Of a stretch of 64,000 nt of DNA, positions 48,982 to 64,000 are shown one piece after another. Within the stretch, counting starts at the first letter, position 1; each line of letters starts with the position of its first letter. The stretch is from positions 1 through 64,000 of the forward strand of contig JAGLPP010000087.1 of NCBI GenBank assembly GCA_023137315.1, written 5' to 3'. Origin of the DNA: Bacteriovoracaceae bacterium. GTDB taxonomy: Bacteria > Bdellovibrionota > Bacteriovoracia > Bacteriovoracales > Bacteriovoracaceae. The notes below the pieces were generated by a model that made no database searches, was not told the origin of the DNA, and saw only the letters and a list, made by a program, of their open reading frames with translations. A program made the translations under genes and the position numbers.

Positions 48982-50283
48982 TCAGGGACGTTTGAATTTT
49001 TTTTGAACCAAATGAAAATAATTACCGGCATAAACCGTAAAAACAAGCATTTTCAGAAGAAGCATTCCCCAATAAAAAGTCCTGACATCATATCCCTTGT
49101 AGCTGTTCATCCAGATTAAAAACGGCACCTCAATTCCAAAACTGATAATCAGATTCAAAATAAAGATTCTCACAGGGAACCCCATATACATGAGCACAAT
49201 CTGAAAATAAAACACCATGGCGATAAAAAATAAAAACACGGCCACAATACGATTCAGATCCGTGGCAAGACTCATATAACCGGCCCTGCCGAAAAGAATC
49301 ATGCTGAACGTATCAGAACAAATGTAAAACGCTGTTGCCAAAACCCCGTAAAAGACAATCAACATCACTCCACTTTTATTCAAAAATGCCCTGATATCCT
49401 TTTTCTCCCCGATCATATTGCCGGCCATGGAGGAAACGGCAAGCGCATGTCCACCACTAACAACGGCCAGCATGGTGACAATTCTGAGCTGAAAACCAAA
49501 AATTGATGTCACTTCCACGCCATATTTTCCAACAATTGAAATCAGAACAAAAACCGACAGATTGAAAACAAAATAAAAAACGGAGACAGGAGCACCAAGC
49601 TTGATGATTTTTCCCAGCATTTTTTTGGAAATCCCTCTAAAATCCACATATGAAAAATCCATATTCGTCTGTTTTATCTTCAAAAGAACAATCCCATAGA
49701 TAACACCAATGACATGTGCAAATACAGTCGCCCATGCGGCCCCTTCAAGTCCCCATTCAAACCAAAAAATTAAAACGGGGTCTAATATCATATTTGTAAT
49801 GGACACAACCAACAAAACGCTCATAGACCAAAAAGGATTTTTTGTCGTCCTGTACAGGGAAACAAAAAAAACCACAAACGGAACCAGAAGAAAGTTATAC
49901 ACCCCAATCCCGCCATAGGTTATGGCATATTCTGTAACCTCGGACGACGAGGAAAAAGACATAATAATGGTTCGGAAAAAAACAAACGCCACAGCAAAAA
50001 GAACACAGGCCAGTGGAACATTAAAAATCAATGAAGTGGATATGGTTTGCACAAGCTTTTTTCGGTTTTTTTCTCCATAAAAACGTGGCAAAAGGTTGAT
50101 ACTGCCCCCGTTGATAACCAATGTCCAACACTCAACCACTGCAAAAAATGTAACAAACACCGCCACGCCGGAAAGATAATCGGAATTTATTCTCGACAAC
50201 CAGAAATAATCAATAAGGAAATTAAGCTGAAGACATATCATCCCAAGAGTTGCGGCCAGTGAATTATAAATAATAACTCTCAT
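48982..50283 (-). CDS. MATE-family efflux transporter
   Basis: 433-aa inner-membrane protein with about twelve helices in two six-helix halves, of the MATE/MatE superfamily that exports drugs or metabolites by Na+ or H+ antiport. Typical stretches are SGVAVFVTFFAVVECW, LLPRFYGEKNRKKLVQ, TTKNPFWSMSVLLV and KLGAPVSVFYFVF. The ATG lies seven bases after the phosphopantetheinyl-transferase stop, so it is the last gene of the operon that also encodes two radical SAM enzymes. The likely job is export of, or self-protection against, the peptide product; this is inferred from position. Confidence 0.9.
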   Translation of the reverse strand: MRVIIYNSLAATLGMICLQLNFLIDYFWLSRINSDYLSGVAVFVTFFAVVECWTLVINGGSINLLPRFYGEKNRKKLVQTISTSLIFNVPLACVLFAVAFVFFRTIIMSFSSSSEVTEYAITYGGIGVYNFLLVPFVVFFVSLYRTTKNPFWSMSVLLVVSITNMILDPVLIFWFEWGLEGAAWATVFAHVIGVIYGIVLLKIKQTNMDFSYVDFRGISKKMLGKIIKLGAPVSVFYFVFNLSVFVLISIVGKYGVEVTSIFGFQLRIVTMLAVVSGGHALAVSSMAGNMIGEKKDIRAFLNKSGVMLIVFYGVLATAFYICSDTFSMILFGRAGYMSLATDLNRIVAVFLFFIAMVFYFQIVLMYMGFPVRIFILNLIISFGIEVPFLIWMNSYKGYDVRTFYWGMLLLKMLVFTVYAGNYFHLVQKKFKRP

Positions 50284-50290
50284 TCTTCAT

Positions 50291-50965
50291 TCACTTTTGA
50301 AGTTCCACCGATGTAAACACATGATTCTTCCAGACATGGAACCGTCCATAATATTCAAATCCATGATCATATCCACAACCAAGTCGTTTCAGTAAACGAA
50401 ATTTAAAACTCCGCCCGGCAAAATCAACTGATATTATACTTGCATCTGAAAAACCGAAAAAAGTGCCGGTAAGAGGATGAAGACACTTGAAGACACTCTC
50501 TTTTGCTGAAAAAATCAGTGTCACATACTCCCGATACTCCAAATCATTTTTAAAAAAACTTTCATACATCCTCATCTCGGATGGAAGAACTATCTCTTCT
50601 TCCACCTGGCGTACAATCTCTTCTTCAAATTTTTGCTCTACATCTATTCCCAACCCGGCAAGTTTATAGTCGTTGGAAACAGCAGCGCAAGCAAATGTCC
50701 CTGTATGACTGATGGAACCGACAATTCCCGAAGGCCATTGCGGTGACCGGTCATGATTGATCCCAATACCGGAAACCTTCATTCCTGTCAGTTTTTCCGC
50801 TGCCATTTGTGCACAATATCTTCCACGAAGAAATTCAATCCGCCTTTTTCTTGTGGCGGATTTCAAAAGATCCGGGATACATTCCTCCACCTTCGGAACA
50901 AACGTTGTATCCAGAATATGAAAACATGAAAATCTTAAAAAATCCGGTGTTTCGATTTGGATCAG
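50291..50965 (-). CDS. 4'-phosphopantetheinyl transferase (EntD/Sfp-type)
   Basis: Transfers phosphopantetheine from CoA to the carrier domains of peptide synthetases. Seen: TRKRRIEFLRGRYCA, PSGIVGSISHTGTFACAA, GLGIDVEQ (Mg-binding Asp-x-Glu) and LIFSAKESVFKC (the xxKEAxxK motif), all in place. The first GTG in frame (50890) would cut off the N-terminal strand-helix common to EntD-like proteins. Reading back in frame to 50965 gives IQIETPDFLRFSCFHILDTT, a fitting N-terminus, and starts at a CTG whose TG is shared with the TGA stop of the preceding gene. An in-frame TGA lies 10-11 codons further upstream, and there is no ATG, GTG or TTG between it and the CTG. It is probably a 224-aa protein made by translational coupling from a rare CTG start. 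It should activate the T domains of the NRPS at 56783. Confidence 0.88.
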   Translation of the reverse strand: MIQIETPDFLRFSCFHILDTTFVPKVEECIPDLLKSATRKRRIEFLRGRYCAQMAAEKLTGMKVSGIGINHDRSPQWPSGIVGSISHTGTFACAAVSNDYKLAGLGIDVEQKFEEEIVRQVEEEIVLPSEMRMYESFFKNDLEYREYVTLIFSAKESVFKCLHPLTGTFFGFSDASIISVDFAGRSFKFRLLKRLGCGYDHGFEYYGRFHVWKNHVFTSVELQK

Positions 50966-52296
50966 CCCCTGAATTTTCCTTCTATACCGTCATCAACATC
51001 GAATGAAAGTCCAAAATTAACATTCATTTCCCCTTCTACGGTATCCGTATCACCCTGTATGAAAAATTCCCTGTAAACATTGGTATTATAGTTACAACCA
51101 AGCAATGTCAGTCTTATAAAATCATCCTCAATATACATGAATTTCTGGCTGACACATGAATCAATTTCCTTTTCAAAATATTCGCATGGATCATGGCCAT
51201 ATCTTTGCTTGAAGTCACTGATTGAAATTTTTGTCTTTTTAAGGCCACGAATCATGAACCTTCTCATTCTTTCATCCATCGAAAGATGCTTTCCAAGACC
51301 CAATGGCAACTCATCCCTGTTAACCATATTCATATAATCCTTTGCGTTGCCGGTATTTACAAAAAAATCACCATGAATATAGCTCATTGCCCCAACCCCA
51401 AGTCCGACCATTGGTTTATTGTTCCAATAATATTCTTCCATGAAACGACAATGATATTTCGCCTTGTATTCCTTTTTCATGTAACCATAAACAGTCAGCT
51501 GATCGTATCCACTGGAAGTGATCTTTTGGTTGGCAACATCATACATTCTTGCCTCATCGTCCCCACTGCAAACAGAAAAATCACCTTTTTGTGCCTGTTT
51601 GTAAAATGGAGTACCGGGCCACAGTTCAAGACCGTATGTTGAAACAGCAGCAGGATCAAGGGAAACAAGTGTGTCGATGGTTTCACTCCACTTGTCAACC
51701 GTCAGATCAGGAAATGGATAGACCAGATCAAGATTTACGTTCTTGAATCCAGCCTTTTTCATAAGTTCGTGGGAATCAATTGCATCCTGGGCGCTGTGAA
51801 TTCGCCCCACACTCTTCAAGATTTCATCATCGAAGCTTTGCACTCCCATGGATAGTCTGTTAAATCCAGCCTCCTTGTATGAAACGAGCTTCTCCTCATT
51901 GACATTAATAGGATCAAACTCCATGGATATTTCCGGATTGTCTGTAATTTCAAAATTTTCCCTAACGGTATCCAAAATACCAAGCACCTGATCCTGACGC
52001 AAAAGTCCGGGATTCCCCCCTCCAAAATACACACAATCAAATACAAATTCCGGATAATATCGTTTTTGGGAATACAGGTTGATATGTTTTTTCAAGGTCG
52101 TAAGATAATTATCAATGGAGCTTTCATCCAATATTTTGTATGCCTTAAAATTGCAAAAACTGCATTTTTGATTACAAAACGGTATGTGAAGGTACAACGC
52201 CGCTTTTTCCTTTTGCAAAAAACTTTCCTCACTTACCTGTTTATAATGAAAGGGGTAGGTCACCATGTTTCTTCGAGATCTTTTAATTTTGCTCAT
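50962..52296 (-). CDS. HemN/HemW-like radical SAM enzyme
   Basis: 444-aa enzyme with the [4Fe-4S] radical SAM motif CNQKCSFC (Cys41, 45, 48) and the HemN/HemW layout: LYLHIPFC, VYFGGGNPGLL (usually GGGTPS), SMGVQSFDDEILKSVGRIHS, NLDLVYPFPDLT and a C-terminal helical domain. HemN makes protoporphyrinogen, HemW is a haem chaperone, and other members of the branch are methyltransferases or cyclopropanases in natural-product pathways. Its place between a SPASM enzyme and a phosphopantetheinyl transferase favours a tailoring role. The start ATG at 52296 overlaps the stop of the SPASM gene as ATGA. Confidence 0.88.
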   Translation of the reverse strand: MSKIKRSRRNMVTYPFHYKQVSEESFLQKEKAALYLHIPFCNQKCSFCNFKAYKILDESSIDNYLTTLKKHINLYSQKRYYPEFVFDCVYFGGGNPGLLRQDQVLGILDTVRENFEITDNPEISMEFDPINVNEEKLVSYKEAGFNRLSMGVQSFDDEILKSVGRIHSAQDAIDSHELMKKAGFKNVNLDLVYPFPDLTVDKWSETIDTLVSLDPAAVSTYGLELWPGTPFYKQAQKGDFSVCSGDDEARMYDVANQKITSSGYDQLTVYGYMKKEYKAKYHCRFMEEYYWNNKPMVGLGVGAMSYIHGDFFVNTGNAKDYMNMVNRDELPLGLGKHLSMDERMRRFMIRGLKKTKISISDFKQRYGHDPCEYFEKEIDSCVSQKFMYIEDDFIRLTLLGCNYNTNVYREFFIQGDTDTVEGEMNVNFGLSFDVDDGIEGKFRG

Positions 52297-53498
52297 ACAA
52301 CCTGCCTCCCGCAATTTGTAAACAAGTAGGAAAGCTCTTCCAAAGAATTATCATAATCCTTATGGTCGAACATATGGTAATTTTTTAAAATCCCGTCCAG
52401 AAGACTCGTCTGATAAAGACAAACATCAGGATTTGGTTTATTCAAACTTCCTGTTGCAATAAAATGTTCATGTCGGCACCCTCCTCCGCAAATACTTACA
52501 GCACGACAATCCCTGCAGGTTTCATTGTCATAGGCGGACTCATTCCACTCATCGAGAAAGGTTATCTCATCCAATGAAAAACGCTTATCACCTGCCAGTC
52601 GATGACATGGGACAATCTTTTCGTCCGGAGAAAAAGTAAAATAAGCTGTTCCTGCACGACAATGATGAATGGATGACTTTCGATGAACTAGCTGGGAAAT
52701 GATTTGATCGAACTCAAGAATCCCCTTCAGATTTGGAAAATCCTCAAGCAAATTACCATATTCATCAATAAGATTCGTAATATTATCAATCATCCTCAAC
52801 TTGAATGAATGTTCCTTGTCCATCCATGCGCTTATGGATGGATAAATGCTTATATAATCAAAAACCCCCGTATCGGAAAGTAGCCGGACATTTTCAACCA
52901 GATCATCCCCAGGATCATGATAAGTCATCCTCGCCACGGTTTTTGTATCGGGACACGCCTCTTTTATTTTTCTCATATTTTCCAGAATAATATCAAAGGA
53001 ACCTTCCCCATTTTTGAATGCACGCTGCTTGTTTTGAACCTCTCTTCCGCCATCAATTGAAACGGAGATAATAAAATCATTATTTTTGAAAAACTCCAGT
53101 ATTTCCTCCGTCATACAAGTCATATTGGTGGAAATTCTTTTTATAAGTTTTATTCCCATTTCATCAAGCCGTGGATCAAGCCAGTCATTAATATGACTTA
53201 GAACCTTGAAATTCATAAGTGGCTCACCACCAAAATATTCCAATCTAAGGCCTGTATTTTTATTGTAATTTTTTTTGATCAGTGAAAATATCTTCTCGGC
53301 ATAACTTTCATCCATCGCACGGGTAATGGTTCCATAATCCCCACCATTGGCAAAACAGTAGCTGCAGGACAGATTGCAATATGGGCCAAGATTCACATTA
53401 ATGGCCAATGGAAGATCCTCGTTCAAAACTCTTTCGGGCCGTTTCATGCCATCAAGGTTTTCCTCGAAATTTCTGTTTTTACTGCATTTAATTTTCAT
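52293..53498 (-). CDS. Radical SAM/SPASM peptide maturase-like enzyme
   Basis: 401-aa enzyme. The radical SAM motif CNLSCSYC (Cys41, 45, 48) is followed by LEYFGGEPL and SVSIDGGREVQNKQR. The SPASM domain with auxiliary Fe-S cluster cysteines occupies the last ~150 residues: IVPCHRLA, CRDCRAVSICGGGCRHE and a later PDVCLYQ. SPASM enzymes modify peptides or proteins (thioether, C-C bond, epimerisation or sulfatase activation). The start overlaps the stop of the 106-aa gene by four bases. The substrate may be that small protein, the NRPS-bound peptide, or another protein; the sequence does not decide. Confidence 0.93.
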   Translation of the reverse strand: MKIKCSKNRNFEENLDGMKRPERVLNEDLPLAINVNLGPYCNLSCSYCFANGGDYGTITRAMDESYAEKIFSLIKKNYNKNTGLRLEYFGGEPLMNFKVLSHINDWLDPRLDEMGIKLIKRISTNMTCMTEEILEFFKNNDFIISVSIDGGREVQNKQRAFKNGEGSFDIILENMRKIKEACPDTKTVARMTYHDPGDDLVENVRLLSDTGVFDYISIYPSISAWMDKEHSFKLRMIDNITNLIDEYGNLLEDFPNLKGILEFDQIISQLVHRKSSIHHCRAGTAYFTFSPDEKIVPCHRLAGDKRFSLDEITFLDEWNESAYDNETCRDCRAVSICGGGCRHEHFIATGSLNKPNPDVCLYQTSLLDGILKNYHMFDHKDYDNSLEELSYLFTNCGRQVV

Positions 53499-53932: not shown

Positions 53933-55003
53933 ATGACTGACTATACTAAATGTCCAACACACAATCTGCACAAAACCTGGATCAACAATACAAAAAAGGC
54001 GTATCTATATGAGAGACTGAGCGGTGATAAAGTCAGATGTCATCTTTGTCCACGTCAGTGCATCATACCTGTAAATTCGGTGGGTTTTTGCAAGGTAAGA
54101 AAAAATCTTTCAGGAGAACTCTACGCCCTCTCCTATGAAAAGGCAGTTCAGATCACCACGGAATTCATTGAAACCGAGGCAATATTCCACTACAGACCTG
54201 GTGCCAATATCCTGAGTCTCGGCAATTTTGGCTGCAACTTAAACTGCATGTACTGTCAAAACTGGAACGTTTCGCAATTCCAGTTCACCTCTCCAGACTG
54301 GATTCATACCTATAGCTCTAATGAGGTCATTCAAAGGGCAAAAAAGGACAATATCGAAATCCTTTCCTGGACCTATAATGATCCCGTTGTCTGGTATGAA
54401 TATGTGGTTGATACAGCAAAAAAGGCTCGCGAGGCCGGATTGAAAAATCTATTCAAATCGGCAATGTATATCGGACAGGATGCCCTGACTGAACTCACAA
54501 AGCACATCGACATTTTTGCCGTTTCCATCAAAGCCATCGACGAGGATTACTACACTTCATTTACAAAAGGAGACCTCCTGCCCGTACTGTCAGCGTGTGA
54601 ATATCTGGTGAAAAACCACCCCGAAATCCACGTTGAAATTTCAAATCTAGTGGTAACAGATCTTACAAATAATCTTGAATCATATGACAAAATGATAGAC
54701 TTCGTTTTGGAAAAATTGGGCCCCGAAATTCCAATTCACTTCACACGTTTCCATCCGGCCTATAAATACAATCACGTTCCAAGAACTCCGGTGGAGGATG
54801 TGGCCCTTGCGCGTGAGCGTGCACTTGAACGTGGAATCAAATACGCCTACGTCGGCAACGTCTTTGATCATGAGGGCCTCAATACATATTGCCCCAACTG
54901 CAAAAACATGCTGATCAAGCGATACGGACTTAAGTCAACCATTGTTGATATGACTGGAAACATATGTAACAAGTGCGGCAGCAATATTCTACTTAAACAC
55001 TAG
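53933..55003 (+). CDS. Radical SAM enzyme, AmmeMemoRadiSam/COG1180 type
   Basis: 356-aa enzyme with an N-terminal cysteine motif CHLCPRQC (residues 36-43) and Cys53, the radical SAM motif CNLNCMYC (Cys101, 105, 108), LSWTYNDPVVWYEY, and a C-terminal zinc-ribbon-like CPNC...CNKC (~330-350). It belongs to the pyruvate-formate-lyase-activase-like branch known from the AmmeMemoRadiSam system, but the partner genes (AMMECR1 and Memo) are not next to it. AAAAAGG precedes the ATG. It is the first gene of the right arm, followed after 8 bp by the U32 gene and then the NRPS; a tailoring or protein-modification role is likely but unproven. Confidence 0.9.
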   Translation: MTDYTKCPTHNLHKTWINNTKKAYLYERLSGDKVRCHLCPRQCIIPVNSVGFCKVRKNLSGELYALSYEKAVQITTEFIETEAIFHYRPGANILSLGNFGCNLNCMYCQNWNVSQFQFTSPDWIHTYSSNEVIQRAKKDNIEILSWTYNDPVVWYEYVVDTAKKAREAGLKNLFKSAMYIGQDALTELTKHIDIFAVSIKAIDEDYYTSFTKGDLLPVLSACEYLVKNHPEIHVEISNLVVTDLTNNLESYDKMIDFVLEKLGPEIPIHFTRFHPAYKYNHVPRTPVEDVALARERALERGIKYAYVGNVFDHEGLNTYCPNCKNMLIKRYGLKSTIVDMTGNICNKCGSNILLKH

Positions 55004-55011
55004 TACTGGAA

Positions 55012-56796
55012 ATGGAAAGATCCAACGTTAGCTTATTTTGTCTGCCTGCCGATTTTGACTTAAAGTCGGCAAAAAACCTTATTGAACTTACAAAAGAATA
55101 TCCTTCAAAAAAAATCAATGAATTTTATGGCTCAATCCCTCTTTACGGCCTTGGATCAGGAAGAAAGAACTCCTCATTAAGAAATATTTCCAGAAAAAAC
55201 TTTTTTACATATATCAGTTTTCTCAAAAATCATGATATTTCCTTCAACTACACCCTGAATGCGATAACTCTTTCCAACATGGAATACACCACGGCAGGTT
55301 ACAAAAAGCTGTTGTACGTAATAGATGAACTCGTAAATGCCGGAGTGGATACTTTCACAGTTTCCATACCCCCTCTGATTGAACTTATAAAAAACCATTT
55401 TCCGCAAATTTCAATCTGTGCCTCCGCAATTTTAAAAATAGACAGTCTCTACAAAATACACGAAGTTTACGACATGGGAGCTGACCGTTTTGTACTGTTT
55501 GAAGACGCCACCAGGGACTTTGGTCTTTTAAGGGAAATAGGGGGGAAATCCCCAATCCCATGTGAAATAATAATCAATCAAGATTGCCTCTTTGGATGCA
55601 TATCAAGAGATTATCACCGCACAGTAAGTGCAATCGACAACAAAACAAATTCATCCGTTGATGTCGAACCATGGCTTAAACGCTGTAAACTAAAAAAATA
55701 CGAACATCCCGAAGAACTTATAAAAACCCCCACCCTGATCCGTCCCGAAGATGTTGTAAAGTACCTTGATACAGGAATCAACTTTTTTAAACTGACAGGT
55801 CGCGAAAGCTATTGGAAAAATTTCCACGATATTCTGAAGTTGTATCTTGAAGGCGAAAATTCCGGTAATTTTCTCGATATTATTCCAAAGACAAAATCCG
55901 GGACACCACCATTTTACATTGCCAATAAAGGCCTGGACAATTTTTTGGATTTTTTCGTTGAAGGTAAAAATCCATGCAAAAGATCATGTCATTCCGATTG
56001 CAACTATTGCAATAAACATATTCCAAAGACAGTGGCGGATTTTAAACATCATACAGAATTCATCAACAAACAAAAAAAGGATTACCTCGATCACGGCCCG
56101 TATTCAAGTATCACTTCCTGCCCATCTGAAAAGATAATTCATATAGGCGCAGACAACAATGATGAACTCATGAAAAAACTCAACAAACTGGATAGTGCCA
56201 TGGAAGCCGAAAAGATAGTTGTCACCATCCAGGATTTCATTCCCGATCTTGATGATTCGTGGATTCTTTTTTTAAGAAAGATAAATGCCAGTTTTATTTT
56301 CAAGAAAAAATCATATAACAGCGAAAACACAAAACTCATAAGAAGACTTCAAGAATCCTTTATTGAGGTCATACACGTCATTATCGTGCCGGAGGAACCG
56401 GATCTCGAACTGTTTCTTTCCAGTCTGCCGCATCTGCCGGGAAGGATCCACATTGAATGGAAAAAATGCCAACTGACACCAGACAATTTGGAACAACATC
56501 CATACCAGATGGAGGTCTTTCACCGCTCATCCAACTCCAGAGGTTTTCTGTTTATGGAAACACCTTACAATGTTCCATTTGTGCAGGCGATTTTGGGCAC
56601 CGAAAAAACACCATTTTACCGTAATCACGAATTTTATCACAACAAATTCTGCCGCGACTGTGAAATTCTTGCGTTTTGCCGCGGAGAATATATTGACTCG
56701 AATCACAGTGACCAAAAAACAGTCTGTGATATGATTAAAACAAATTTTTCATGGGAGATGTCCCATTACCAGAGAATCAGTAATGAAGGACAATAA
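55012..56796 (+). CDS. U32-type protein with two extra cysteine clusters
   Basis: 594-aa protein. The N-terminal ~240 residues match the U32 (collagenase-like) family: a TIM-barrel style start, VSIPPLIELIKNHFP, ADRFVLFEDATRDF, CEIIINQDCLFGCISRDYH and a Cys at WLKRC, the cysteine set that holds a 4Fe-4S cluster in UbiU/UbiV-type members. A second Cys cluster at about 324-336 reads CKRSCHSDCNYC; a third near the C-terminus is CRDCEILAFC. Such members are oxygen-independent hydroxylases rather than peptidases. The ATG at 55012 follows the radical SAM gene by 8 bp; the 3' end overlaps the NRPS start by 14 bp. A hydroxylating or redox tailoring role is likely; alternatively it may be a peptidase. 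Confidence 0.8.
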   Translation: MERSNVSLFCLPADFDLKSAKNLIELTKEYPSKKINEFYGSIPLYGLGSGRKNSSLRNISRKNFFTYISFLKNHDISFNYTLNAITLSNMEYTTAGYKKLLYVIDELVNAGVDTFTVSIPPLIELIKNHFPQISICASAILKIDSLYKIHEVYDMGADRFVLFEDATRDFGLLREIGGKSPIPCEIIINQDCLFGCISRDYHRTVSAIDNKTNSSVDVEPWLKRCKLKKYEHPEELIKTPTLIRPEDVVKYLDTGINFFKLTGRESYWKNFHDILKLYLEGENSGNFLDIIPKTKSGTPPFYIANKGLDNFLDFFVEGKNPCKRSCHSDCNYCNKHIPKTVADFKHHTEFINKQKKDYLDHGPYSSITSCPSEKIIHIGADNNDELMKKLNKLDSAMEAEKIVVTIQDFIPDLDDSWILFLRKINASFIFKKKSYNSENTKLIRRLQESFIEVIHVIIVPEEPDLELFLSSLPHLPGRIHIEWKKCQLTPDNLEQHPYQMEVFHRSSNSRGFLFMETPYNVPFVQAILGTEKTPFYRNHEFYHNKFCRDCEILAFCRGEYIDSNHSDQKTVCDMIKTNFSWEMSHYQRISNEGQ

Positions 56797-59300
56797 CTTC
56801 AGCATACCGCCTTTTCCGCTCAGTCAGGCACAGATAAGCATCTGGATGGATGAAAAAATCCGTCCGGGAACCAGTATCTATAACAACTGCGCACTGCTTG
56901 AACTTGATTCCATAAAAAGTATTGAAGATCTTATTGATGCCTGGAAATATCCTCTTTTGATATTCAAGTCATTCTGGTTGAGGATCATGGACACACCAGA
57001 TGGCCCAAGACAATACTATGATTTTGATCCTGACTTCAAAATCAAGGTTATTGATTACTCGACATTAAACGATGGAGAAAAAAAGGCACATGATTTTATA
57101 AATTCGAAGGCAAAAAAAAACATCAACGTAAACGGCGAACGTCTTTTTGACTCATTTATAATCCTTTGCCCGAAAGGAAAGGCACTTGCTTTTTGTAAAA
57201 CCCACCATATTATTTCGGACGGCCACAGTGGTGCACTTTTTTACAAACACGTCTTGAAAAAATACTCCCTTGGTTCACGCTTTAAGCTATTTTGTCACAC
57301 ACATGACTACAGTAAATTTGTTTCCCATGAACTTGATTTTTTAAAAAGCACGCGGGCAGAAAAATCAAAAGGGTTCTGGATTCAAAATCTGAAGGACCCG
57401 CCAGAGGCACTTTTCCATGATACATGGAAAAATGAGAAATTATTCACAGGAAAATCAACCTCCATTCCGCTTGGAACTGAAAAAACACGCAATATCCTCG
57501 ACTTCTGTCACAAAAGAAACATTTCCCCGACAGTCTTCTTTCAAACCATTGTCTATCTTCTTTTTTCAAGAAGCATGGACAGACGGGACATTATCCTTGG
57601 CACAAACTTCATGAACAGAATCGGAATGGATTTCAAAAACATGATTGGAATGTTCGCCTCAACAGTCCCTCTCAGAATCATTGAGGAAAATAATGCAGCG
57701 GATTTTTCCGAAATATTGGAAATTGTGAGCCGGACCTTCTTGCAATGCCGCAGACATCAGAGCTATCCATATAACAAAATAATCACCGACAGGAACAAAC
57801 TTTTTAATGTCCTCGTAAACTTTGAACCCATGTGGACAAAAGAATCCGACAAAACCGAAGGACTGCATTTTTCCATACCTTTTTCCGGAGGGACTCCACA
57901 TGATCTATCCATTCTATTTCATGACCGCCTGCTCGCAGGATATTTAAGCGTTGAAGCACACTACCTTGAGAGTCTGTTCGACAAATCCGAAATAAAAAAG
58001 CTACTCGAAAATATAGCAAAATTGATCTCGGTTGTTCTGCTTGATCCACTAATGCCACTGACAACATTAGACGCACCATTAATTCAAACAAGAAAAAATA
58101 TAAAAACAATTCACTCCAGCAGCTCCTCCTCTAATAAAAAAGAAATTGCGTCGGTTTGGAAAAAAATTCTGAACGTTGAAGATAGCATTTCAAACGACGA
58201 TAACTTCTTCTCTCTTGGAGGGGATTCCATCAAGGCAATTCGTCTTGTCTCCAGACTCAAGCAGGCAGATTATGAGGTGGATGTCATGGACATTTTTACA
58301 ACGCCTTTATTCATTGATTTTTCAAAGAAGATCACAAAAAAAACACCTGCCTGCAGACATGATGAACCATCATCATGCGTTCTTCCACCTACTCAAAATC
58401 AACAATATCTGTTCAAGACAGTTAAAAACAATATTCATCTTTACAACCACGAAATCACATTCAAAATCGACGAGAACATGGATACGGATGAAATAAGAAA
58501 AAGATGGAACCGAATAATAAAAAAACATGATTCCCTTCGCATCCATTTTAAAAAAGATGCCGATTCATATCAGCAAATAATAAATTCGCCGAAAGAAATC
58601 CCAATTACTGTTTACGCTGTAGATGACACTCACCCACCACTGAACATTCATAAGGCTCCACTTTTTCGCCTTGTTTTTGATAAAAAGGAGCATTCACTCA
58701 CAATTACCGCCCACCATTTGATCATCGACGTACTTTCCTGGTCTGTCATTCTGGATGATTTTTTTGACGACAGGTCTTCAACTTCACCCGATACAAGTTA
58801 TCGGCATTGTACCCGACAAGATTCCACCATGTGCCATCTTGTTTCCAACAATCACAAGCGCAAAAAGCTTTACTGTGCTTTTGAGACTTCAAACAACAAA
58901 CCTTCGGAAAAATCACTAATAGAGCTGCTCAACAGATCGCTCGATGATTTATCAGACCTTCAACCGATATCCACAATACTCGAAAGACATGGACGTTCCA
59001 ATTACAATATGGCCACCACAGGCTGGTTTACGTCCTTTGAAATAAAACCGAACAGTAATGAATCACGTTATGTTCTATTTAACTATCTCGGGGAACTCGA
59101 TAATAGAATTAAAAACATCAGATTGGTAAAACAGGATAATGAAACCTCCCCATATTTGCTTGAAATAAATTGCTACCATCAAAAAGGTCGTTTTTTTATT
59201 TCCCTGGAATATGACTCGGACATGGTCAGCAAAAAAGATGCACATCAACTTCTCGATGAATTTCAAGAGGGTATCATTCATACCACCTTTGTCGATGTTT
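56783..59300 (+). other. NRPS module 1: C-T-E, without an adenylation domain
   Basis: C1 runs to about 58080 and is followed after a ~30-residue Ser-rich linker (HSSSSSSNK) by the carrier domain; no A-domain motif occurs between. The epimerisation domain follows at ~58380-59290 and appears 80-100 residues shorter than usual between its HH motif and ERHGR. The amino acid for this module must be loaded in trans, or the acyl chain of a previous protein is passed on and epimerised. Confidence 0.85.
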
Positions 59301-62300
59301 ACCAGCTTACCCCCCTGCAACAGGGAATGTATTTTCATCTTGCCGCACACCCAGATTCCAATGCATATTTTGAACAACTTTGTATCGAGCTTGGTGGAAA
59401 CTTCAATCAAAAAGCTTTTTTGAATGCAGTCGAACTTGTTATAAATAAACACCAGGCCCTTCGGTCCGTCATCACGGAGATTGATCATTCACCATATCTT
59501 GGAATACTGAAAAAATTCGATCTCAAACCGGAAATTAAAAACAATGTCACAGAAAAAGAACTTGAATCAATCAAGGCCGGGGATTTAAACACACCATTCA
59601 ATCCTGAAGAGAAACCTCCTTTACGAATAACAATTATAAAAACAAATGATGGCCGCAATATCATGTTATGGTCACATCACCACATAATTCTTGATGGATG
59701 GAGTCTGGGAATTATTCTTTCCGATCTTCTCGAAACCTACAACAACAAAGCTGGTTGCGCGGAGAAGAACTCCCCTGCACCACTTTACGAGTGGATAAAT
59801 TCACGCAGATATGAAGATGATTTAAAATTCTGGAAAGACAAACTTTCAACTTTTGAATCCTCCAGTGATCTTCCCAAATGCATGCCCCTTCATGGCGAAA
59901 AAGAACTTAAACGCCTGAACTTTGATTTTGACACCTGCCTTACACTTAAAACCTCTGAATTTTGTAAAAGAAACTCAATAACCATCAATACCTTTATCAG
60001 AGGGTTGTGGACGATTCTACTTTCAAAATATTCAGGCCGCGATGACATGACATATGGAATTACAATCTCCGGCCGCTCCCCTGAAATACCTGAAGCGGAA
60101 AAATTCACAGGCATGTTCATAAACACAATTCCCGAAAGAGTGACACTGGAAAAAGATAACAAATTTTGTGAATTTTTATCATCACTCCAAACAAGCTTCA
60201 TACATGCTGAAAAACATGGACACTGCCCTCTCTCCCATATCCAAAAAGACCATCACCTTGGAGCAAATCTCTTTGATCATCTTCTTGTTTTTGAAAATTA
60301 TCCACTAGACAAAACACATCTATCGAGTGATGGTTCAAAACTTTATATTAAAAATATCTCTCTTTTTGAAATGAACGAATTTCCATTCACTATTGTCATA
60401 AGACCAGAAGAGCAAATTCATTTTGAGATACAATATCTATCCCGGTTTTATCCTGACCATTTTATAACCTCCATCAGAGATCATCTTCTAAAACTGGCTT
60501 CTCAAATGATATCCTTTCCAAAAACAAGACTTCGTAATATTGACATCCTGACTGAAAATGAAAAATCACTCATCCTCGAAAAATTCAACAATCACACCAC
60601 AGAAAACTATAAAAACGACATTCCTGCTCATATTCTTTTTGAACGACAAACCTCACTGACACCTGACGCGAATGCCCTGGTTTTTCACGAAAGGGTTTTG
60701 ACCTACAGGGAACTCAATACAAGAAGCAACCAGCTTGCACATTATTTAAGGGAAAAATTCAAAAGCTCCGCAAACAGAAGAATTGGAATCTATCTGGATC
60801 GAAATTTCAATATGATTATTGCCCTGCTCGCAATCTTAAAATCCGGCGCAGGTTATGTCCCCATCTCCCCTCAATATCCTGACGAGCGTAAAAAATACAT
60901 GATCACCGACAGCGATATTGAAGTTATTTTAAGCGAGACTGGATTTCAGAATGAACTTTCAATATTCGAAAGGCCTGTCATTTTTCTTGATAATCCTGAA
61001 CCTGTTATTTCCCGGATGCCTGAAACAAATCCAAAACACATAAACAACATGGAGGATCTGGTATACCTGATCTACACCTCCGGCTCCACCGGAAAACCAA
61101 AAGGTGTCATGCAAAATCACCGCAGCGTATGCAATATGCTTCTGTGGAAAAAACATCATTCAAAAATTGACCATCGTCTAAAAACACTTTTTTTCACTTC
61201 AATCAGCTTTGATGTCTCTTTCGAGGAAATATTCACCACACTCACCAACGGAGGAGAGCTTTATATAGTCGATGAGGAGACAAGAAACCATCCCGATCTT
61301 CTCGCAGAATTCGTTCATAAAAACAATATAAATATTGTTTCCATGCCGTTTTCCTATTTAAACCTTCTTTTCGACAAAAACTCACCGACCTATGACAAAA
61401 TTTTAAAAAGCGACATCCGATACATCATTCATGGTGGTGAACCTTTCAACGTAACGGATGGGATTTCAGATTTTCTAAAGGCACATCCTCAAACAGTCCT
61501 TCATAACAACTACGGCCCCTCCGAAACCCACATGGTGACCTCGCATACACTCAGTCGAGAAAATTATTCAAGCATTCCTGTCGGACGGCCGCTTACCAAA
61601 TGCCGTATCTATATTCTATCTGATGATCTGCGCACGGTTCCAATTCACGTTCCGGGAGAAATTTACATAGGAGGTGAACAGGTCGGAATCGGTTATTTTG
61701 GAAACCAAACACTGACCAACGATCGTTTCGTGAGTGATCCTTTTGTGAATGACAAAAATGCGAAAATGTATAAAACCGGTGATCTCGGACGCTTCCTTGA
61801 AAACGGGGAGATTGAATATATTGCAAGAAGCGATCATCAAGTGAAAATTCGTGGAAACCGTGTTGAGCTTACGGAGGTTGAATCACACCTTCTGGGCATT
61901 ACAGGAATAAAGGAAGCTGCTGTAACCGCCCAAACAGATTCAATAAATGGAACAGCACTTGTTGCCTGGTATGTTGGATCAAATGACTTGTCAGTAAATG
62001 ATCTTCGCCAGAAACTTTCATCGACCCTCCCCGATTACATGATCCCCTCTTACTTTGTCCAACTTAAAAAACTTCCAAGAACTCCAAACGGAAAGCTCGA
62101 CCGCAACGGTCTTTCAAATATTTCACCACAAAAAAGTGAAAGCACATTTGAAGAACCAAAGGGTGACACTGAACAAAAACTTGCAACAATATGGCGTGAA
62201 ATACTGAAACTTAAAAAGATAGACCGACATACAAGTTTTTTCGATCTTGGAGGCCATTCACTCAAAGCACTAAGGATCATTTCCATGATCTATGGCGTCT

Positions 62301-64000
62301 TAAAGAAAAAAATCACACTTAAGGAATTTCTCGATCACCCAACTATTTCACACTCGGCCGCTATAATTGATAAAAAAGAGGACAATGTACATGTTCCCAT
62401 AAGACAAACTCATAATACAAAGAATTTTGCAGACCTGTCTCCGGCACAAAGAAGAATATGGGCCGTGAACAATCTGGACTCCTCTGGCAAGGCGTATATT
62501 CTTTCCGGCGTTTTTCAGATTTGTGGAAAATTTCCAAAAGAGATTTTTGAAAAACGTATGAACAAAATCATTGCAAATCACGAAATCATGCGTACCCGTT
62601 TCACAAAGACAGAAGCCGGAACACCAAGACAGGAAATCCTTCACTCTTTTGAACTCAAGGTAAAGGTTATCGATTTATCAGACCTTGATACAACCAACGA
62701 CCAACTTGACAATATCGTGGACAATGAGGCGAATCAGGCATTTGACCTTGAAGCGGCCCCGCCAATAAGAGCGGTTTTTATAAAAACCGGGCCTGAAAAT
62801 GGCCGTTTTGTTCTTTGCATTCACCATATTATCAGTGACGAATGGTCAATTCGCCTGATTCTGGAATCCCTGACAGAAGATACTCCTCCATCTTGCGACA
62901 TTCAATATCGTGATCTTGTCTCTGAAAAAACGGACTTCGACTACTGGGAAAAAATATTTCAAAAGCCAGTCCATGAGATAAATCTTTTTCAAGGAATCAG
63001 ACGCAGAAATATTCAAAAATTCACCGGAAGATCAAAGAAATATATTTTTTCAAAAAATCTGTCACACAAACTTGAACGTGTCTGCTCACAATTCAAACTA
63101 ACCCCGTTTGTGGCCTTGATATCATCCGTTGTGGTTTTAATCAGCAGACTAGGCAACACAAATGACATAACTTTTGGAACTCCATCCCTTGGGCGGGACG
63201 ATCATGCGACTCATTCAATGCTTGGTGTGTTCATCAACATGCTTGCCTTGAGATTTGATATTGATCAAAAAATGTCATTTGCAGATGTTCTGAAAGAATC
63301 CAAAAATATCGTGTCAGATGCCTTTGAACATCAAAATGCCCCATTTGACAGAATCATTGAAAGACTTGGAATAAAAAGATCTCCCGGACGATCACCTCTT
63401 TTTGACATAATGGTTGTCCTTGCTGACTCAAACCCGCAAGAAGAGATGTTTACAATTGAAAACACCGATTTCAAACGAATTCCATCACATAACAAAAGCA
63501 GTAAGTACGATCTCTCATTCTATTTTTCCACAGATAAGGATCAGCTCAAACTCGATCTTGAATACAACAGCACTCTTTTACCTGAAAATTATATCGACTC
63601 GCTAATACAATCCCTGGACAGTCTTCTGGATGATGCCCTGACATCACCGGAACTCAACATATACGAATTATCCATTCTCTCAAAGAAACATCATGAGTTT
63701 TGGAATAAGACCAACCTGACGGAAAATCATGGACACAATTATCGACAAACAGTCATTGAGGTCATTGAAAAAACCGTAAAGGCGCATCCTGAAAATATTG
63801 CCCTGGAATACCCGGAAGGACAACTTTCCTACAAGGAACTATGGGAAAAATCGACCTCTCTGAGTAATTTACTAATACATGAATATGGATTAAAACCACA
63901 AACAAATGTGGCACTTTGTTTGCCACGCTCCCCTGAAATGGTCGTCTCAATTCTCGCGGTACTCATGGCCGGATGTGCCTATGTTCCCATTGATCCAAAC
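56783..64000 (+). CDS. Nonribosomal peptide synthetase (partial, runs off the window)
   Basis: At least 2,406 codons of one uninterrupted frame. The ATG at 56783 lies inside the end of the U32 gene. Domain order from visible motifs: C1 (HHIISDG near 57203), T1 (LGGDS, Ser at 58226), E (HHLIIDVLSW at 58712, ERHGR, GWFT, FNYLG), C2 (HHIILDGWS near 59677), A1 (YTSGSTGKPKG near 61075, FDVSFEEIF, NNYGPSE, YKTGDLG, TPNGKLDR), T2 (LGGHS, Ser at 62258), C3 (HHIISDEWS near 62822), and the beginning of A2 (KELWEKSTSLSNLL, GCAYVPIDPN). T domains need the phosphopantetheinyl transferase encoded at 50291. Minus-strand and other-frame open stretches here are shadows. The terminal part, including any thioesterase, lies outside. 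Confidence 0.95.
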   Translation, partial: MKDNNFSIPPFPLSQAQISIWMDEKIRPGTSIYNNCALLELDSIKSIEDLIDAWKYPLLIFKSFWLRIMDTPDGPRQYYDFDPDFKIKVIDYSTLNDGEKKAHDFINSKAKKNINVNGERLFDSFIILCPKGKALAFCKTHHIISDGHSGALFYKHVLKKYSLGSRFKLFCHTHDYSKFVSHELDFLKSTRAEKSKGFWIQNLKDPPEALFHDTWKNEKLFTGKSTSIPLGTEKTRNILDFCHKRNISPTVFFQTIVYLLFSRSMDRRDIILGTNFMNRIGMDFKNMIGMFASTVPLRIIEENNAADFSEILEIVSRTFLQCRRHQSYPYNKIITDRNKLFNVLVNFEPMWTKESDKTEGLHFSIPFSGGTPHDLSILFHDRLLAGYLSVEAHYLESLFDKSEIKKLLENIAKLISVVLLDPLMPLTTLDAPLIQTRKNIKTIHSSSSSSNKKEIASVWKKILNVEDSISNDDNFFSLGGDSIKAIRLVSRLKQADYEVDVMDIFTTPLFIDFSKKITKKTPACRHDEPSSCVLPPTQNQQYLFKTVKNNIHLYNHEITFKIDENMDTDEIRKRWNRIIKKHDSLRIHFKKDADSYQQIINSPKEIPITVYAVDDTHPPLNIHKAPLFRLVFDKKEHSLTITAHHLIIDVLSWSVILDDFFDDRSSTSPDTSYRHCTRQDSTMCHLVSNNHKRKKLYCAFETSNNKPSEKSLIELLNRSLDDLSDLQPISTILERHGRSNYNMATTGWFTSFEIKPNSNESRYVLFNYLGELDNRIKNIRLVKQDNETSPYLLEINCYHQKGRFFISLEYDSDMVSKKDAHQLLDEFQEGIIHTTFVDVYQLTPLQQGMYFHLAAHPDSNAYFEQLCIELGGNFNQKAFLNAVELVINKHQALRSVITEIDHSPYLGILKKFDLKPEIKNNVTEKELESIKAGDLNTPFNPEEKPPLRITIIKTNDGRNIMLWSHHHIILDGWSLGIILSDLLETYNNKAGCAEKNSPAPLYEWINSRRYEDDLKFWKDKLSTFESSSDLPKCMPLHGEKELKRLNFDFDTCLTLKTSEFCKRNSITINTFIRGLWTILLSKYSGRDDMTYGITISGRSPEIPEAEKFTGMFINTIPERVTLEKDNKFCEFLSSLQTSFIHAEKHGHCPLSHIQKDHHLGANLFDHLLVFENYPLDKTHLSSDGSKLYIKNISLFEMNEFPFTIVIRPEEQIHFEIQYLSRFYPDHFITSIRDHLLKLASQMISFPKTRLRNIDILTENEKSLILEKFNNHTTENYKNDIPAHILFERQTSLTPDANALVFHERVLTYRELNTRSNQLAHYLREKFKSSANRRIGIYLDRNFNMIIALLAILKSGAGYVPISPQYPDERKKYMITDSDIEVILSETGFQNELSIFERPVIFLDNPEPVISRMPETNPKHINNMEDLVYLIYTSGSTGKPKGVMQNHRSVCNMLLWKKHHSKIDHRLKTLFFTSISFDVSFEEIFTTLTNGGELYIVDEETRNHPDLLAEFVHKNNINIVSMPFSYLNLLFDKNSPTYDKILKSDIRYIIHGGEPFNVTDGISDFLKAHPQTVLHNNYGPSETHMVTSHTLSRENYSSIPVGRPLTKCRIYILSDDLRTVPIHVPGEIYIGGEQVGIGYFGNQTLTNDRFVSDPFVNDKNAKMYKTGDLGRFLENGEIEYIARSDHQVKIRGNRVELTEVESHLLGITGIKEAAVTAQTDSINGTALVAWYVGSNDLSVNDLRQKLSSTLPDYMIPSYFVQLKKLPRTPNGKLDRNGLSNISPQKSESTFEEPKGDTEQKLATIWREILKLKKIDRHTSFFDLGGHSLKALRIISMIYGVLKKKITLKEFLDHPTISHSAAIIDKKEDNVHVPIRQTHNTKNFADLSPAQRRIWAVNNLDSSGKAYILSGVFQICGKFPKEIFEKRMNKIIANHEIMRTRFTKTEAGTPRQEILHSFELKVKVIDLSDLDTTNDQLDNIVDNEANQAFDLEAAPPIRAVFIKTGPENGRFVLCIHHIISDEWSIRLILESLTEDTPPSCDIQYRDLVSEKTDFDYWEKIFQKPVHEINLFQGIRRRNIQKFTGRSKKYIFSKNLSHKLERVCSQFKLTPFVALISSVVVLISRLGNTNDITFGTPSLGRDDHATHSMLGVFINMLALRFDIDQKMSFADVLKESKNIVSDAFEHQNAPFDRIIERLGIKRSPGRSPLFDIMVVLADSNPQEEMFTIENTDFKRIPSHNKSSKYDLSFYFSTDKDQLKLDLEYNSTLLPENYIDSLIQSLDSLLDDALTSPELNIYELSILSKKHHEFWNKTNLTENHGHNYRQTVIEVIEKTVKAHPENIALEYPEGQLSYKELWEKSTSLSNLLIHEYGLKPQTNVALCLPRSPEMVVSILAVLMAGCAYVPIDPN
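59300..62370 (+). other. NRPS module 2: C-A-T
   Basis: C2 follows an E domain, so it should be of the D-donor accepting type. The specificity-conferring A-domain positions, read by aligning with GrsA by eye, are D-V-E-S-I-G-N-M-V-K. Glu at position 239, with Ser278, Ile299 and Gly301, resembles codes for Lys (D-A-E-S-I-G-S-V-C-K), so a basic amino acid is a cautious prediction. Confidence 0.7.
62430..64000 (+). other. NRPS module 3: C-A, truncated by the window end
   Basis: C3 has HHIISDEWS, with Glu where the Gly of HHxxxDG normally stands. The A2 domain begins about 63740 and reaches only its A2-type motif (GCAYVPIDPN), so its substrate code lies outside the window. Confidence 0.8.

Follow-up and report, generated by a model that had tools for sequence, protein, structure and literature searches.

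Modules of nonribosomal peptide synthetases (NRPS) that lack an adenylation (A) domain of their own are rare, as the original prediction for the locus described here had held for a trans-loaded one, yet they are documented. The mannopeptimycin NRPS, with the domain order C-A-T-E-C-A-T-C-T-E, contains an A-less unit of condensation, carrier and epimerisation domains (C-T-E), and one A domain is reported to be common to two carriers (PMC8949500). In the case of capreomycin, the A-less CmnI was experimentally shown to be loaded by CmnA-A1, and VioI of viomycin is listed alongside (PMC12400406). Other modules without an A domain are paired with a free-standing A-T protein, namely module 9 of SyrE with SyrB1 (PMC8949500) and module 8 of EndB with EndD (PMC13320435).

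The locus analysed here resembles each of these systems in part. Like the mannopeptimycin NRPS, it has an A-less C-T-E unit; there, an adjacent A domain within the protein serves the T domain. Unlike in that NRPS, where the A-less unit is internal and follows the common A domain, the present unit comes first, before the A domain, and carries a starter-like C domain and a compact E domain. CmnI and VioI share the A-less module, but they are separate proteins and are not described in PMC12400406 with an E domain or as initiation modules. EndB and SyrE also contain a module without its own A domain; a free-standing A-T partner like theirs was not found for the present cluster. The new element is the first-module position together with the starter-like C and the compact E domain, and not the A-less module as such.

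The NRPS gene belongs to Bacteriovoracaceae bacterium and lies on contig JAGLPP010000087.1 (66,636 bases) of GCA_023137315.1, a draft assembly of 223 contigs that is 95% complete. The window, i.e. the whole stretch of DNA that was analysed, comprises 64,000 nucleotides. The open reading frame starts at position 56783 on the forward strand, is open throughout, with 7.2 kb within the window and no frame break, extends past the window and is truncated inside C4 by the contig end. Pfam profiles and the HMMs built here agree on the domain series C1-T1-E1-C2-A2-T2-C3-A3-T3-C4 (Table 1). As the contig stops within C4 and a search of the assembly for a thioesterase came up empty, the last part of the synthetase is unassembled, and with it part of the cluster.

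Table 1. Features of the window and, in the last four lines, NRPS genes of other U32 loci that start with a partial C domain.
Feature	Coordinates	Strand	Evidence or remark
Phosphopantetheinyl transferase, in principle able to prime T domains	50291..50890	-	PF17837/PF01648
AmmeMemoRadiSam-type radical SAM gene, immediately preceding the U32 gene	53933..55003	+	TIGR04337, 285 bits vs cut-off 220
U32-family Fe-S protein gene; 14-base overlap with the NRPS start	55012..56796	+	PF01136; conserved Cys
C1, condensation domain, starter-like, HHIISDG intact	56807..58099	+	PF00668; HMM; placed by tree among first-position C domains (0.97 support)
C1-T1 linker, 13 residues, without A domain	58100..58138	+	HMM boundaries; sequence
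T1, carrier domain, FFSLGGDSIKAI; phosphopantetheine Ser (residue 482) at 58226-58228	58139..58330	+	PF00550; GGDSI type
E1, compact epimerisation domain without the motif E6 region	58373..59284	+	tree, E-model score, motifs, structure model
C2, condensation domain, D-donor (DCL) type	59294..60571	+	DCL HMM; tree
A2, adenylation domain with the Arg-like code DVESIGNMVK; proposed to load T1 and T2	60632..62128	+	
T2, carrier domain, GGHSL	62174..62365	+	HMM
C3, condensation domain, LCL type	62423..63700	+	HMM
A3, start of adenylation domain, continues past the window; code DVWHISLVDK, Ser-like	63758..64000	+	
NRPS gene with partial C start, L083	12230-14824		
NRPS gene with partial C start, L084	11226-17117		
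NRPS gene with partial C start, L092	11184-17195		
NRPS gene with partial C start, L114	5968-10020		

A profile search with C, A, T and E models placed C1 at residues 9-439 of the NRPS, T1 at 453-516 and E1 at 531-834, with A2, from residue 1284, as the first A domain. Module 1 combines a C domain with an intact HHxxxDG motif (HHIISDG) and a T domain with the phosphopantetheine serine (FFSLGGDSIKAI, PF00550), and it has no A domain between them, exactly as had been claimed. The linker, previously put at about 30 residues, proved shorter, as the HMM boundaries leave only about 13. A divergent A domain at this place was rejected, because an A domain needs about 490 residues and none fits in this space. 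T1 must, as judged from this layout, be loaded by some A domain outside module 1. An A domain could conceivably have been dropped at the C1/T1 join when the contigs of this draft were assembled. However, such a deletion would need to be in frame and to fit the edges of both domains; E1 of this gene is itself shortened in frame at several separate points, and natural A-less C-T modules occur in relatives. We consider such an artefact highly improbable.

The clade of six that contains C1 in a tree built from 137 C-family domains comprises, besides C1, four C domains from the first position of their proteins and one from mid-protein; an earlier tree had placed C1 with two starters (support 0.92). 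HMM scores were 145.6 bits for the LCL model vs 58.5 bits for the starter model, the latter built from three sequences only. The best reading, held with moderate confidence, is that C1 is a starter (lipo-initiation) C domain, for which an acyl-CoA donor would provide the starter.

This reading bears on the possibility, also raised in the original prediction, that T1 accepts and epimerises a chain built by another protein. Eight relatives of the same family (L048-L052, L054, L056, L057) encode C-T-C-A-T proteins of about 1860 amino acids in which, as here, an A-less C-T lies directly before C-A-T, though without an E domain. The C-T-C-A-T protein of L048, the only locus scanned in this respect, possesses a thioesterase. 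In L048-L052 and L054 an adjoining protein carries A-T and a further T; in L048 it reads as an A-T-KS-AT-T-aminotransferase protein and precedes the C-T-C-A-T protein. Hand-over of a chain is plausible in a family where a separate A-T-KS-AT-T protein precedes the A-less C-T protein. However, C1 falls with the starter C domains, away from the C1 domains of these relatives, and no other condensation domain or multi-domain NRPS was detected in the genome, which makes a chain received from elsewhere very unlikely indeed. The A-less C-T of the relatives was also rejected as a homologue of C1-T1, as the comparison of C1 and the tree show them not to be orthologous.

Regarding the domains that flank E1, T1 is of the GGDSI type, present in 22 of the 23 reference carriers that precede E domains, while HSL occurs in carriers preceding C domains (44 of 55 references). 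C2 scored 322.6 bits with the DCL model vs 250.3 bits with the LCL model, and the trees are consistent with the DCL type. Because of the GGDSI signature of T1 and the DCL type of C2, a D residue is expected to leave module 1.

The predicted epimerisation domain after T1 was recovered as well: E1 falls among E domains in one tree (support 0.993), stands beside the reference E domains in the 137-domain tree and scores 67 bits with the E model. Yet the domain is shortened, to about 310 residues vs 421-483 in the references, i.e. by about 110-170 residues. The motifs HHLIIDVLSW (HHxxxDxxSW), ERHGR (ExHGR), GWFTS (GWFT) and FNYLG are kept, at spacings of 90, 13 and 19 residues; the 21 E domains used as reference have 133-153, 18 and 55-73. 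Motif E6 (KGxGY), searched with a pattern that matched 14 of 22 references, is absent from E1 together with the surrounding stretch. Altogether, residues are missing at three or more points of E1, this stretch included, and the frame is kept at all of them. The structure model of E1 had the TycB3 E domain as its best structural match. It reached a pLDDT of 62 and a pTM of 0.46, vs 83 and 0.81 for a C2 control modelled with the same twelve sequences, a gap that the divergence of E1 may explain in part, as the alignment was made of C domains and not of E domains. Confidence was limited to the N-terminal lobe of E1, and the C-terminal lobe was modelled poorly.

With at least about 110 residues lost and a poor C-terminal lobe model, E1 may be inactive. 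Taken further, the whole of module 1 could be a relic that has lost its A domain and whose E1 is degenerating, with synthesis truly beginning at A2; the shortenings and the missing E6 region would fit such a history. It is hard to reconcile with the intact HHIISDG of C1, GGDSI of T1 and HHxxxD and ExHGR of E1, with the long undisturbed frame and with a C2 that is still of the DCL type. We therefore regard a relic as quite improbable, and compact E1 as a putatively active epimerase.

Which A domain could load T1 was approached by an inventory of AMP-binding profile matches in the assembly. Besides A2 and A3, it contained one Acs-like and one FadD-like enzyme, an A-T protein of the Pls-like kind, and two weak matches to PaaK-like proteins; the acyl-CoA enzymes (acetyl-CoA synthetase-like and long-chain acyl-CoA ligase-like) and the PaaK-like proteins were named by reading and not by model. 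A free-standing amino-acid A domain elsewhere on the genome, for which the original prediction had suggested a search, was not found in this 95% complete assembly. The code of A3 is Ser-like when set beside those extracted alike from bacillomycin D synthetase and further reference enzymes. The code of A2 agrees at seven of ten positions with DVESIGGVTK, which is an Arg/homoarginine code (PMC12283262).

The Pls-like protein, on another contig (C84), scored 388 bits with TIGR02353, under the cut-off of 423, and has a T domain of its own. Full-length orthologues, 55-59% identical, are present in three genomes (G017, G028, G041), in which a search for the C1-T1-E1 unit gave nothing at 1e-20. As a loader of T1 this protein is disfavoured, since its orthologues occur in relatives where the NRPS was not found.

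The earlier claim of loading in trans holds insofar as T1 must be loaded from outside its module. Trans is neither the sole nor the likeliest route, as the polypeptide itself contains two A domains and a free-standing one for amino acids was lacking from the assembly. Loading in trans, by an A domain from the unassembled part of the cluster or by the Pls-like protein, would agree with the truncated contig and the missing thioesterase, and with the service that SyrB1 and EndD provide to SyrE and EndB. Against the absence of a free-standing loader in the rest of the assembly, we judge it possible, if somewhat unlikely. A2 is the A domain nearest to module 1, only one C domain away. We give roughly even chances to the proposal that T1 of an A-less initiation module C1-T1-E1 is loaded from within its own polypeptide, with A2 as the likeliest A domain to do so. 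Against this proposal stand the higher LCL score of C1, the possible inactivity of E1 and the truncation of the gene at its 3' end; with that end lacking, a further A domain of the cluster may have gone unassembled.

If A2 is the loader, synthesis could proceed as follows. A2, with its Arg-like code, would charge both its own T2 and T1. The residue carried by T1 would be acylated by C1 and turned to the D form by E1. The DCL-type C2 would then hand the N-acyl-D-aminoacyl group to the residue of A2, after which Ser would be added by A3. Domain order, absence of the A domain, intact catalytic motifs, C2 subtype and T1 signature can be read from the sequence itself, as can the lack of a free-standing loader in the assembly; the loader, the substrates, the acyl starter and a working compact E1 are what we infer from them.

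The C1-T1-E1 unit had no close relatives among GTDB genomes. In 369 genomes of the phylum only C-T-C stretches, 23-25% identical, were detected, in three of them, and no match in plasmids covered 80% of the query. A scan of viral contigs for E domains gave one locus, which was left out of the analysis.

The U32 gene that overlaps the NRPS start represents a further feature of the locus. A scan with a U32 alignment found this subfamily beside NRPS C domains in seven of 78 loci, a raw count. These loci, in as many other genomes (L083, L084, L086, L087, L092, L103, L114), belong to Clostridia, Bacteroidetes, Nitrospirae and Aminicenantes records. In four of the seven, an NRPS gene near or after the U32 gene starts with a truncated C domain, of which the C-terminal part alone is present (profile positions about 182-448; Table 1). 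Among the papers searched, those joining U32 peptidase and nonribosomal peptide were unrelated by title. Studied U32 proteins have a role in oxygen-independent hydroxylation (PMC6747719, PMC6599085). It is conceivable, though unlikely, that the U32 Fe-S protein modifies a carrier-bound residue in an oxygen-independent type of NRPS, in which an E1 of about 310 residues works and is loaded from the downstream A domain. Positions 48982-53498, on the strand opposite to the NRPS, encode a MATE transporter, the phosphopantetheinyl transferase, and HemW-like and SPASM-type radical SAM proteins.

If A2 does load an upstream carrier, product prediction by counting A domains would overlook one residue where the chain begins. 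Such loading would also offer a simple one-protein system in which the choice of an A domain among carriers can be tested. Should the compact E1 be active, it would show how far the epimerase fold can be reduced.
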